A DNA stretch of 36,504 bases from an uncultured Archangium sp. (GCA_903905455.1 CAIVGN010000082.1:1-36504); one strand, 5' to 3'. Shown: positions 20,520 to 24,391, counted from the first letter of the stretch. Program-made: numbers and translations. Notes: generated by a model not told the origin, from the letters alone.

Positions 20520-20698
20520 GTGTGGCTCCTCCTGAGGGCTGCACACACCTGACAGCCCTCGAAGGCAAACTGTGACTGCGGCTGGACGGTGCGGTCGTCA
20601 CCTAACGTCCCCGAACTACGGGCTGGGAGTTCCCTGAATCCAGCTACTTGGCGGCCCGGTTAACGGGGAGCAGAGTCCGGGCCTCCTGTGCCCTGCCG

Positions 20699-21295
20699 AT
20701 GGCGCTCTCCGCAGCACCGCTCGATGAGCCCCGGGGCCTGCGCGCTCCAGAGCGGGTGCGCGCCGTGTGGGTGAGCTGGGTCGCCGCGGCGCGGTCGGGT
20801 GATCACGACGCCTTCGCCTCGCTGCACGGGCACTTCGGCCGCCTGGTGCACGCGGTGATCATCGCGCGGGTGCCGGCCGCAGACGCCTCCGACCTGGTGC
20901 AAGACGTCTTCCTCCTGGTCTTCCAGAAGCTCTCTCAGCTCGAGGACGACCAGTCGTTCCCGGCCTGGCTCACCCAGCTGGCGCGCAACCGCGCTTCCCG
21001 GCACCTGCGCGATGCCCACCCCAGCGCGCCGCTCGAAGACGCGCCGCAGGTCGCCGCGCCCGATCGTTCGGCGGGGCCCGACGCGAAGAAGATCCTCACC
21101 GCGCTGCACGCGCTCCCCGAGGCCTACGCCGAGACGCTGGCCATGCGCCTCATCGAAGGCATGACCGGCCCGGAGATCGCCGAACGCACCGGGCTCACCC
21201 CCGGCAGCGTGCGCGTCAACCTGCACCGCGGCATGGCCCTGCTTCGCCAGAAGCTCGGCCTGTCGCCACCGAACGAGGCGCTCGACGATGAGTGA
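20699..21295 (+). CDS. ECF RNA polymerase sigma factor (partner of the CpaB fusion)
   Basis: A 198-residue group IV sigma factor. Region 2: DHDAFASLHGHFGRLVHAVI, then ASDLVQDVFLLVFQKLSQL and FPAWLTQLARNRASRHL. Region 4: HALPEAYAETLAMRLIEGM, TGPEIAERTGLTPGSVR and NLHRGMALLRQKL as the recognition helix. The ATG at 20699 is chosen because the upstream frame lacks family similarity. Its last eight bases overlap the CpaB-fusion gene, so the two are tightly coupled, as in sigma/anti-sigma pairs. The 179-bp gap to the divergent macA holds GTTAACG at 20659-20665 but no clear promoter. Confidence 0.87.
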   Translation: MALSAAPLDEPRGLRAPERVRAVWVSWVAAARSGDHDAFASLHGHFGRLVHAVIIARVPAADASDLVQDVFLLVFQKLSQLEDDQSFPAWLTQLARNRASRHLRDAHPSAPLEDAPQVAAPDRSAGPDAKKILTALHALPEAYAETLAMRLIEGMTGPEIAERTGLTPGSVRVNLHRGMALLRQKLGLSPPNEALDDE

Positions 21296-22259
21296 CTACC
21301 TCTGGGACCAGTCGGGTTCCGACCCCGACGTCCAACAGCTCGAGGCCGCGCTCAGTGGCCTCGCCTATGACGGCGACCCGCCCGTGCTCCCCTCGCCGGT
21401 CCGCGCGCCCCTGCCCTCGCCGCCGTTGCCGCGGGTCAGGCCGCCCCCCTACCGCCCCGGCGCCCCGTGGACGCACGCCCGGCTCACTCCCCTCGCGCTC
21501 GCCGCCGGCCTGATGCTCATGGGCTTCGGGGTGGCCTTCAGCGCGCTGCAGCGCGAGCGCGCCCAGGTGCGCCAGGGCTGGAACCTGGTGCCGGTGGTGG
21601 TCGCCGCGGTCGATCTCGCGGAGGGCACGGTGGTCACCCTCGAGCACCTCTCGCAGCGCAGCGTGCCCGAGCAGTTCGTCACCTCGTCGGTGATCAAGCC
21701 CGACTCCGCCAGCTACGTGGTGGGGCAGAAGGTGCAGGTCGCGGTGGCCGCCGGTGACCCGCTGCTGTGGAACGAGTTCGAGACCTCGCGCGCGGCCGAG
21801 CGCCTCGCGGCGCGGGTGATGAAGCGGGCCCGCGCCCTGGCGGTGGAGGTCAAGGGCACCACCGGCGTCGGCGGTTTCATGCGCCCCAACGATCACGTGG
21901 ACATCATCGGCAGCTTCAAGGACCCGCTCACCAACCTCCCCGTCGCCGTCACCTTGATGCAGAACGTGATGGTGCTCGCCACCGGCAAGCTCACCGGCAC
22001 CACCAACGTGAACCTCGTGCCCGAGGCCGAGCGCGCCTACGGCCACGTCTCGCTGATGGTGCTGCCCGAGGAGGCCGAGATGCTGGCCCTGGCCCAGGGC
22101 CTGGGCAACCTCACCTTCACCCTGCGCAACGAGGACGACCTCGACGTGCTCGAGGAACGCGGCCGGGCGACGCTCCAGACGCTGCTGTCCGGCGAGCGCT
22201 CGAAGGTGCTGCAGCAGAAGCGGTTCAACACCATCCAGGTCATCCGCGGCACGAAGTAG
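21288..22259 (+). CDS. cpaB: Anti-sigma-like N-terminus fused to CpaB (Flp pilus assembly/SAF) domain
   Basis: A 323-residue protein. Residues 4-20 (YLWDQSGSDPDVQQLEA) resemble the YLWD-type motif at the N-terminus of many anti-sigma factors. A Pro-rich linker spans about 31-60, and one membrane helix lies at about 67-87. The rest is CpaB/RcpC: WNLVPVVVAAVDLAEGTVV and DSASYVVGQKVQV form the SAF domain (about 100-165), and RPNDHVDIIGSFKD, VLATGKLTG and VIRGTK the C-terminal domain. Ordinary CpaB has no such N-terminus. The gene overlaps the sigma gene by eight bases. Inference: it tethers the sigma factor and releases it in response to periplasmic assembly state. A paralogue is at 23454-24257. 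Confidence 0.8.
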   Translation: MSDYLWDQSGSDPDVQQLEAALSGLAYDGDPPVLPSPVRAPLPSPPLPRVRPPPYRPGAPWTHARLTPLALAAGLMLMGFGVAFSALQRERAQVRQGWNLVPVVVAAVDLAEGTVVTLEHLSQRSVPEQFVTSSVIKPDSASYVVGQKVQVAVAAGDPLLWNEFETSRAAERLAARVMKRARALAVEVKGTTGVGGFMRPNDHVDIIGSFKDPLTNLPVAVTLMQNVMVLATGKLTGTTNVNLVPEAERAYGHVSLMVLPEEAEMLALAQGLGNLTFTLRNEDDLDVLEERGRATLQTLLSGERSKVLQQKRFNTIQVIRGTK

Positions 22260-22330
22260 GGCGGATGAGGTCCCTCGCGCTGACCATTCCCAGCAAGGAG
22301 GCGCGGAGCATGCCCCGGGGGAACTGAGGC

Positions 22331-22501
22331 GTGGACGGGCGCTGGCGGGCCTCGAGCGACGAGGGGTCCTGGGTGCCCTACCGTGCTCGTGCCGAACTGG
22401 CCCCTCTCTTCGCGCGCCACGGATGCGTGTTTCGCTTCAGCTTCGTCGTGGATTCGTCCGCGAGCGAGGCCTCCGAGGAGCCGACCTGCGTTTTGTCATA
22501 G
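22331..22501 (+). CDS. Possible small hypothetical protein
   Basis: A GTG-started frame of 56 residues (VDGRWRASSDEGSWVPY at the start, then LAPLFARHGCVFRFSF) ending in SEEPTCVLS. Codon bias is fairly GC3 and composition protein-like, and it lies on the same strand between the CpaB fusion and the next gene. The ribosome site is weak and no relative is known, so it could also be the remnant of a larger gene. An AGGAGG followed by ATG and an early stop (22297-22327) precedes it. Confidence 0.3.
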   Translation: MDGRWRASSDEGSWVPYRARAELAPLFARHGCVFRFSFVVDSSASEASEEPTCVLS

Positions 22502-22621
22502 GTGCTCGAACCACCCGGCCCCTGGCGTCACCACCACCTCGCCCCGCTCACTCCAGGAAGGTGCGCTGGAGCGCGAAGCAACGAGCGGTACCAGGCGAGA
22601 CGCTGGGCTATCTGGATCCCC

Positions 22622-23230
22622 ATGAGTACCGACTCCAAGGCGCGTGGGCTGCAGGGCTTCCTCGTCGGCGCGCTGGTGGCTGGCGCCGTCGCAGCCGGCA
22701 TCTTCCTCTCGAAGCCGCCCGAGCAGGTGCCGTCCGGCCCGAGCGTTCCGATGGCCGCGCCGACGTTGGCCCCGGTAGAACCGCTCGCCCCCGCGGAGGC
22801 GCCAGCGCCGGCGAGCCCGCGCGAGGCGGCCGACCTGCTCTTCAACGAGGCGATGGTGGCCAGTGAGCAGGGCGACCAGGGTCGGTTGGCGCAGGTGCTG
22901 CCCGGCGCGATCGCCGCGTACCGCTCACTGGGCGAGCTCGACGCCGACGAGACCTACCACCTCGCGCTCCTCGAGCTGGCGGGTGGGATCCTCACCGAAG
23001 CGCGCGCCGCCTGCGCTTCGCTCCTCGCCAAGAACCCGAACCACCTGCTCGGGCTGGGCGTCTCCTTGCGTGTGGCCATGAAGGCGAACGACGCGTCGGC
23101 CGCGCGGGCCTTCGGGCAGCGGCTGCTGAAGGCGTATGACATCGAGGCGGCGCGCCCGCTCCCCGAGTACCAGGACCACCAGCGTGTGCTCGCCATCCTC
23201 CGCGCCGAGGCGATGGCCGCCGCGAAGTGA
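22622..23230 (+). CDS. Membrane-anchored TPR-like protein
   Basis: A 202-residue protein: short cytosolic start (MSTDSKARG), membrane helix at about 10-28 (LQGFLVGALVAGAVAAGIFL), Pro/Ala-rich periplasmic spacer (about 30-65), then helical repeats (AADLLFNEAMVASEQGDQG, DADETYHLALLELAGGILTEA, NPNHLLGLGVSLRVAMKAND) resembling TPRs. It sits between two CpaB-type genes, so a role as scaffold for the same envelope structure is suggested by position only. No enzymatic motif. Confidence 0.65.
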   Translation: MSTDSKARGLQGFLVGALVAGAVAAGIFLSKPPEQVPSGPSVPMAAPTLAPVEPLAPAEAPAPASPREAADLLFNEAMVASEQGDQGRLAQVLPGAIAAYRSLGELDADETYHLALLELAGGILTEARAACASLLAKNPNHLLGLGVSLRVAMKANDASAARAFGQRLLKAYDIEAARPLPEYQDHQRVLAILRAEAMAAAK

Positions 23231-23252
23231 CCAGCCCATGCGCTGAAAGCCG

Positions 23253-23396
23253 ATGACCCGCGTCGTCAGCTGTTCCGTCGACGGCACTCCAAGCGCCTCT
23301 TGGCAGGACCGCGGCCGGGCGACCGTCGAGATGTTGCGCTCCGCTGAGCGAAGCAGGGTGCCTGAAGATGATGCGGTCGCCGAGCGCCTTGGGTGA
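23253..23396 (+). pseudogene. Decayed CpaB C-terminal fragment
   Basis: A 47-codon frame contains DRGRATVEMLRSAERSRV, which aligns with ERGRATLQTLLSGERSKV near the end of the CpaB fusion upstream (about 12 of 18 positions equal by eye). The preceding 28 codons show no CpaB similarity and the end diverges (PEDDAVAERLG then stop). It is best read as what is left of a third CpaB copy lost by deletion, lying 57 bases before the intact second CpaB. Confidence 0.5.
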
Positions 23397-23453
23397 ACTC
23401 GCCGGGAAATGATCGCTGTTAACGCTTCCTGCGGCGCGTGACTCCTGTGCGGC

Positions 23454-24257
23454 ATGTTCAAGGGAAAGACGCCGCTCATCGTCGCCGTGGTGCTGGGCCT
23501 CGCCTCGTTCGTCGTCGGCTGGTCGGGCCTGCAGAAGCAGCGCGCCGACGCGCGCAAGGGCTGGAACCTGGTGCCGGTGGTGGTGGCCGCCGTCGACGTG
23601 TCCGAGGGCACGGTGGTCACCATGGAGATGGTCAGCCAGCGCTCCATCCCCGAGCAGTTCGTCACCGCCTCGGTCGTCAAGCCAGACTCGGCCAGCTACG
23701 TGGTGGGGCAGAAGGTGATGGTCTCGCTGCAGGCCGGTGACCCGCTGCTGTGGAGCCAGTTCGAGACCTCCCGCGCCGCCGAGCGCCTCACCACCAAGGT
23801 GGTCAAGCGCATGCGCGCCATCACCATCGAGGCCCGCTCCACCAGCGCCGTGGGCGGCTGGGTGCGCCCCAACGATCACATCGACGTCATCGGCACCTTC
23901 AAGGACCCCGACGGCAACCAGCAGGTGGCCCTCACGCTGCTGCAGAACGTGGTGGTGCTCGCCACCGGCAAGCTCACCGGCAACACCAACATCAACCTCA
24001 TTCCGGAGAACGAGCGCAGCTACGGCAACGTGACCCTGATGGTGGTGCCGGAAGAGGGCGAGATCCTCACCCTGGCCCAGGAGCTGGGCAACTTGACGCT
24101 CGCGCTGCGCAACGACGACGACCTCGACACCATCAACAACCGCGCGCCCACCACCGTGCGCACGCTCTTCGACGGCGAGCGCATCGCCATTCACCACAAG
24201 CAGCGCGAGGCGATCATCGACGTCATCCGCGGCAACGTGCGGCGAGACGCGAAGTGA
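23454..24257 (+). CDS. cpaB: CpaB-like Flp pilus assembly protein (second copy)
   Basis: A 267-residue protein with one N-terminal membrane helix (about 7-24) and the SAF and RcpC/CpaB domains: WNLVPVVVAAVDVSEG, DSASYVVGQKVMV, FETSRAAERL, RPNDHIDVIGTFKD, LATGKLTGNTNINLIP. More than half the residues equal those of the fusion protein upstream, but it lacks the anti-sigma-like N-terminus. CpaB proteins act in the inner-membrane side of Tad/Flp pilus secretion near CpaC. No cpaC, cpaF, tadB, tadC or pilin gene is in the window. Its stop overlaps the following 45-residue gene by GTGA. Confidence 0.85.
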   Translation: MFKGKTPLIVAVVLGLASFVVGWSGLQKQRADARKGWNLVPVVVAAVDVSEGTVVTMEMVSQRSIPEQFVTASVVKPDSASYVVGQKVMVSLQAGDPLLWSQFETSRAAERLTTKVVKRMRAITIEARSTSAVGGWVRPNDHIDVIGTFKDPDGNQQVALTLLQNVVVLATGKLTGNTNINLIPENERSYGNVTLMVVPEEGEILTLAQELGNLTLALRNDDDLDTINNRAPTTVRTLFDGERIAIHHKQREAIIDVIRGNVRRDAK

Positions 24258-24391
24258 CCACGCTCGCGGCGCTGCTGTGGGGCGCGGCGGTCGGCCTGCT
24301 CACCGTGACGCTCTGGCCCCGGCACCCGGCGGCGCCCCCTCGTCGGCTCGCGCTCGAGGAAGAGGACGGCGGTCCCCGCACCCTGCACTGA
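24254..24391 (+). CDS. Small single-pass membrane peptide coupled to CpaB
   Basis: A 45-residue peptide beginning with GTG that overlaps the CpaB stop (GTGA). It has one hydrophobic helix (LAALLWGAAVGLLTVTLW, residues 4-21) followed by a charged cytosolic or periplasmic tail (RRLALEEEDGG). Tight coupling and the helix support a real gene. Function unknown; a CpaB accessory is a guess from position. It meets the parvulin lipoprotein gene tail to tail three bases later. Confidence 0.55.
   Translation: MTTLAALLWGAAVGLLTVTLWPRHPAAPPRRLALEEEDGGPRTLH

Follow-up and report, generated by a model that had tools for sequence, protein, structure and literature searches.

A contig from an uncultured Archangium sp. 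(GCA_903905455.1, CAIVGN010000082.1:1-36504) carries a gene pair that joins an extracytoplasmic function (ECF) sigma factor to a membrane protein fusing a predicted anti-sigma segment with the pilus protein CpaB. The window analyzed here is this entire contig (C82), 36,504 bases of an 8.6-Mb genome; its coordinates refer to the plus strand, and the evidence throughout is computational. The host group consists of predatory soil bacteria and is little studied. The sigma gene (20699..21295) encodes 198 aa with sigma2 and sigma4 domains, both above the Pfam cut-offs (Sigma70_r2, 5.5e-11; Sigma70_r4_2, 1.7e-13), and no sigma3 domain, the composition of an ECF factor; its TIGR02937 score is 70.5 bits. 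The gene for the predicted anti-sigma/CpaB fusion (21288..22259, 323 aa), which is supported by Pfam, TIGR03177 and orthologues, starts inside the sigma gene, giving an overlap of 8 nt (ATGAGTGA, 21288..21295).

The fusion opens with the YLWD module (residues 2-28, 21291..21371; DYLWD at residues 3-7), a predicted sigma-binding segment recognized by a profile (A1), by its context at sigma loci and by AlphaFold2 (AF2) models of homologues. There follow a linker (residues 29-62, 21372..21473; Pro-rich at 31-58), a membrane helix read from a hydrophobic stretch of the sequence (residues about 67-87, 21486..21548), a SAF domain (residues 102-164, 21591..21779; PF08666, 2.3e-9) and an RcpC/CpaB domain (residues 172-280, 21801..22127; PF16976, 1.2e-20). 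With 166.9 bits against TIGR03177 (pilus_cpaB, cut-off 71), the fusion belongs to the CpaB/RcpC family. None of the Pfam anti-sigma models match it, and Pfam finds no FecR domain in it at E<=1. The sequence-only reading had described the 8-base overlap, the YLWD N-terminus, the Pro-rich linker, the membrane helix and the SAF/CpaB region, and all are confirmed by the sequence together with Pfam and TIGR03177.

The pair recurs among relatives. The near relatives are metagenome-assembled genomes labelled Archangium sp., Myxococcus sp. or Myxococcaceae, which were searched first with the fusion and next with a YLWD-segment profile, after which the loci were read. The overlapping sigma/YLWD-CpaB pair is found in the window genome and 13 other Myxococcaceae genomes, namely the genus members G002-G005 together with G006, G009, G010, G022, G156 and G157-G160, although it is incomplete at a contig end in G006 and also cut in G156. 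Repetition in 13 further genomes argues that the pair is more than chance, and a search for the same overlapping pair, run as a check on the sequence-only reading, thus finds it kept. Beyond the Myxococcaceae, searching 195 of the phylum's genomes yields weak partial matches at most. Within the genus, the YLWD segment has a dN/dS of about 0.18-0.39, indicating purifying selection. The fusions of G003, G004 and G005 (L050, L051, L052) carry the YLWD module duplicated in tandem, possibly providing two sigma-binding sites.

The YLWD module extends well beyond CpaB. Scanning GTDB genomes for the sigma family returned 80 loci, 79 of them evaluable; 12 are of the Myxococcaceae type and the remainder derive mostly from Acidobacteriota, with some from Gemmatimonadetes, Planctomycetota, Eisenbacteria, Lysobacter and others. 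Directly downstream of the sigma gene, all 79 evaluable loci encode a protein of the YLW[DN] type in which a hydrophobic segment follows the motif, a count based on a loose pattern verified by eye in which a few starts are perhaps off. The two genes overlap in about two thirds to nine tenths of the 79 loci (by 4 nt in 49, by 8 nt in 12, by other lengths elsewhere). Pfam assigns a FecR domain to 30 of the 79 partners, the window fusion being included in the set, and RcpC/SAF (CpaB) to 11, which are the window protein and 10 from Myxococcaceae; most of the remaining partners have no recurrent known domain. Two genus members encode a YLWD-membrane helix-FecR variant behind the same sigma family (L106, L107). 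Because the sensor domains vary in this way, the YLW[DN] module is the common element of the partners, and the simplest reading is that YLWD is a short sigma-partner module combined with various periplasmic sensors. Its conserved core is YLWD..G..D..V..LE..L. No Pfam model covers the module, and a YLWD profile run against PDB sequences returns nothing relevant. The literature retrieved does not link YLWD with anti-sigma function, and the papers returned for CpaB with anti-sigma factors seem unrelated, judging by title and abstract.

A second CpaB gene is tied to the pair by a shared promoter-like element. CpaB2 (23454..24257, 267 aa; TIGR03177, 175.5 bits) lacks the YLWD module and begins 1194 nt beyond the end of the fusion gene. 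Alignment of the regions upstream of sigma genes reveals the pattern GTTAAC-N18/19-TCCT. The window holds GTTAAC-N19-TCCT before the sigma gene (20659..20687), 11 nt upstream of the ATG and plausibly autoregulatory, and again before CpaB2 (23418..23446), 7 nt upstream of the start codon. The exact pattern has two matches in the 8.6-Mb genome, precisely at these two genes, and it lies upstream of sigma and CpaB2 again in G002-G005, in G022 and in several genomes of genus g5. CpaB2 itself adjoins the pair in G003-G005, lies 2 kb downstream in G160 and is found on the same or a different contig elsewhere. Among 66 sigma loci outside the A-type set, no 6-mer is more enriched upstream than GTTAAC (35 observed, 1.7 expected), and a CGTCT or CGTCC-like word usually lies 18-19 nt beyond it. 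Since GTTAAC is conserved upstream of sigma genes, including those of the wider family, the sigma family is probably autoregulated from a GTTAAC promoter. CpaB2 is probably the core second target of the window sigma factor. The earlier reading had placed CpaB2 in the same circuit as the pair, and the shared promoter agrees; its role as a putative target, derived from that promoter, had not been foreseen.

Putative targets beyond these two are occasional: a SAF-protein operon in G005 and, in G156, G157 and G160, a 497-aa protein with carboxypeptidase-regulatory-like repeats, as judged from its sequence. Behind its GTTAAC promoter, the G005 operon (L067:4610-8994) encodes two SAF/RcpC proteins whose N-termini resemble those of lipoproteins; one of the two is 1205 aa long and has a VIT domain. 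A pattern match near the Tad locus of G003/G004 was set aside as chance, because it falls within the coding region of the ECF sigma factor belonging to that locus. At both window sites (20659-20699 and 23418-23454) the start codon follows the putative -10 element by 7-11 nt, which suggests very short leaders or leaderless transcripts.

Structure prediction bears on the contact between sigma factor and module. In four loci (L141, L173, L198, L199), sigma and YLWD share one frame split by a stop, which was read as Gly for AF2; the prediction, of acidobacterial homologues, used an 80-row alignment. The resulting sigma-YLWD chain has a mean pLDDT of 92.4 and a pTM of 0.89, with about 93-97 in the YLWD segment (171-200). 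Because the model output gives no contact list, it is from this confidence that we infer docking of YLWD on sigma. The best structural alignments of the modelled sigma are to SigW as complexed with RsiW (Z 14.0), to CnrH with CnrY (Z 13.6, 3.5 Å over 149 residues) and to RpoE with NepR (Z 13.0); polymerase-bound sigma fits poorly (about 27 Å).

The two partners also occur as a single polypeptide. A chain that runs from a sigma-like N-terminus through YLW, a long linker and a membrane helix to SAF-CpaB is encoded in the window genome (C6, L009) and in nine other genomes; 13 of the 14 genomes with the two-gene form also hold a single-chain form, a count uncorrected for relatedness. The sigma-like part falls below the Pfam cut-off in region 4, has its region 2 unmatched in L009, and shows a helix-turn-helix that has lost basic residues; on these grounds it is probably not an active sigma factor. 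Scans of three single chains report no receiver domain and place their sigma-like parts mostly under Pfam cut-offs. A version without CpaB, ending in the membrane helix, is conserved in genus g5 and in G006 (L100-L105, L109).

CpaB connects the locus to pilus machinery encoded elsewhere in the genome. In Tad machines, CpaB makes up the alignment subcomplex of the periplasm (PMC13170226), and the split Tad apparatus found here resembles the Kil system of M. xanthus (PMC8460266). One part of this Kil-like apparatus, on C46, comprises CpaB, two T2SSF platform proteins and an FHA protein; the other, on C224, comprises a secretin adjoining an FHA-ATPase (the FHA domain assigned by eye). C70 holds a second Tad cluster of ordinary type. 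The search for tad genes elsewhere in the genome, proposed alongside the first reading, thus succeeds. The window contig has neither a secretion ATPase (T2SSE) nor a secretin and so is not itself a Tad pilus locus, in keeping with the earlier remark that other Tad genes are absent nearby. The C46 CpaB is 71% identical to both CpaB2 and the fusion, which share 64% with each other. In a CpaB tree, the two-gene form, CpaB2 and Tad CpaB lie close together on short branches, and the single-chain CpaB is fast-evolving.

Between the two CpaB genes lies a membrane protein gene (22622..23230) previously described as TPR-like; the gene stands, whereas the TPR resemblance is weak (TPR_6, E=0.0077, under the cut-off), and no counterpart of it was found in the syntenic relatives whose loci were read. 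A single-helix peptide of 45 aa (24254..24391) overlaps CpaB2 by 4 nt and ends in PRTLH, a C-terminus that is conserved; G003 and G004 encode homologous peptides 43-44 aa long. This bears out the earlier description of a second CpaB without YLWD about 1.2 kb away and coupled to a 45-residue peptide. Just upstream of CpaB on C46, the Kil-like cluster encodes its own ECF sigma factor and a zinc-finger anti-sigma factor (L008:4317-6366). On C211, a single protein (L010:6062-7900) unites a zinc-finger-like N-terminus, a Ser/Thr kinase, a membrane helix and two SAF domains; an ECF-like sigma gene lies directly upstream, making this a second signalling use of SAF domains.

Taken together, these observations make it probable that the pair is an ECF sigma/anti-sigma switch that regulates itself, senses through CpaB and has two targets, its own operon and CpaB2. 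The predicted anti-sigma function of the YLWD module is well supported by context, and the earlier proposal that YLWD is a sigma partner is supported by the 79 of 79 loci, the single-chain sigma-YLW-CpaB relatives and the confident AF2 model. There are strong grounds to suppose that the cytoplasmic YLWD module would bind the sigma factor and hold it at the membrane, with the membrane helix connecting the module to a periplasmic SAF-CpaB sensor. Once freed, the sigma factor would use the GTTAAC-N18/19-TCCT pattern observed at both targets as its promoter, transcribing its own operon, anti-sigma included, and CpaB2.

Several results weigh against this interpretation. A reversed control pattern likewise has two matches in the genome, so the significance of the GTTAAC matches lies in their position and not in their number. 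The sigma promoter of G010 is a one-base variant (its CpaB2 pattern is present), and in G009 no exact promoter match was found at CpaB2. A GTTAAC promoter was sought in the Kil-like clusters and none was found, so any link to the pilus depends on the homology of CpaB. The AF2 model represents acidobacterial homologues, and contact positions are unreadable in it. The window sigma modelled alone as a control (pTM 0.80) is equally compact and finds the same structural matches; compactness is hence evidence neither for inhibition nor for an effect of YLWD, and the compact sigma2/sigma4 arrangement, considered as a sign of inhibition, was dropped. Finally, the YLWD module could activate instead of inhibit, like FecR. 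YLWD would then be a co-activator or two-way regulator, the sigma factor would need the fusion, and a CpaB signal would switch it on rather than release it. The FecR domains in 30 of the 79 partners and the constant position of the partner gene within the sigma operon fit such an arrangement; against it, the YLWD module is unmatched by any Pfam model, the FecR type included. We regard activation of this kind as unlikely.

For the inhibitory switch, the assembly state of a complex that contains CpaB is a tentative candidate for the signal. CpaB, CpaB2 or the secretin might be the partner of the fusion's CpaB domain, and altered pairing might free the sigma factor, which would raise CpaB2 and so reset the switch. 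The CpaB domain might instead be a mere membrane and periplasmic anchor, or a recent capture that senses nothing, with proteolysis or expression level setting the switch. The g5 single chains that keep the membrane helix and dispense with CpaB point in that direction, as does the fast evolution of single-chain CpaB domains. The two-gene CpaB, however, stays close to Tad CpaB, and a neutral anchor leaves unexplained why the controlled gene is another CpaB; this too appears an unlikely account.

The single chains invite an elaboration of the CpaB-sensing switch in which partners are exchanged. The two-gene CpaB/YLWD anti-sigma protein might be a member of the Kil-like Tad machine's alignment ring, and the single-chain pseudo-sigma/YLW/CpaB protein encoded at another site of the genome would compete for YLWD as a sigma mimic, coupling assembly of a predation pilus to CpaB2 transcription; this is a speculative scheme that we consider quite improbable. 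Least probable is that the fusion is mainly a CpaB variant with a structural role in the Tad machine and tethers sigma through YLWD as a by-product of pilus assembly, since, despite its full-length TIGR03177 match and high identity to Tad CpaB, it is encoded beside a sigma gene and not tad genes, both copies lie outside tad clusters, and YLWD is an old sigma partner found with other sensor domains too.

If the switch operates as proposed, a structural component of pilus machinery has become the sensing element of a transcriptional switch, and the locus offers a direct way into how cells monitor assembly of Tad/Kil machinery, which kills prey in Myxococcus. The predicted anti-sigma module YLW[DN], short and widespread, has apparently not been described before and would come with a recognizable GTTAAC-N18/19 promoter, and the regulons of many sigma factors of Acidobacteriota and Myxococcota should therefore be predictable.

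Among known systems, FecI/FecR pairs share the gene order, in which the ECF sigma gene precedes one for a membrane protein whose single helix lies between a short cytoplasmic N-terminus and a periplasmic sensor, and the close relatives of the window sigma at L106 and L107 have a true FecR behind YLWD. The window fusion differs in having SAF-CpaB in place of FecR and a cytoplasmic segment, YLWD, without a Pfam model. Class II anti-sigma factors such as CnrY and NepR (PMC8103513) resemble the YLWD module as modelled in being short, helical and peptide-like. The structural match to CnrH and RpoE concerns the modelled sigma and is the same for sigma alone, and the PDB search shows no sequence similarity of YLWD to these anti-sigma factors. 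Class I anti-sigma factors (RseA, RsiW, ChrR) are often membrane-bound and co-encoded with their sigma factor (PMC7406223). Their four-helix anti-sigma domain (ASDI) contrasts with the YLWD module, which has about 27 residues, one short and one longer helix as modelled, and no zinc motif. The single-chain relatives recall the PhyR/NepR partner switch, combining a sigma-like domain that lacks sigma features with YLW and giving a weak PhyR-family match (E=0.0011); unlike PhyR, they are membrane-bound and have no response-regulator domain. CpaB/RcpC and KilB of the Myxococcus Kil apparatus (PMC8460266) share with the fusion the SAF and RcpC domains and an N-terminal membrane helix, with 71% identity to the Kil-like CpaB, whereas the fusion adds a cytoplasmic YLWD module and linker and is encoded with a sigma factor. 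Measured against these systems, sigma/anti-sigma signalling with a pilus-derived sensor would be a new variant.

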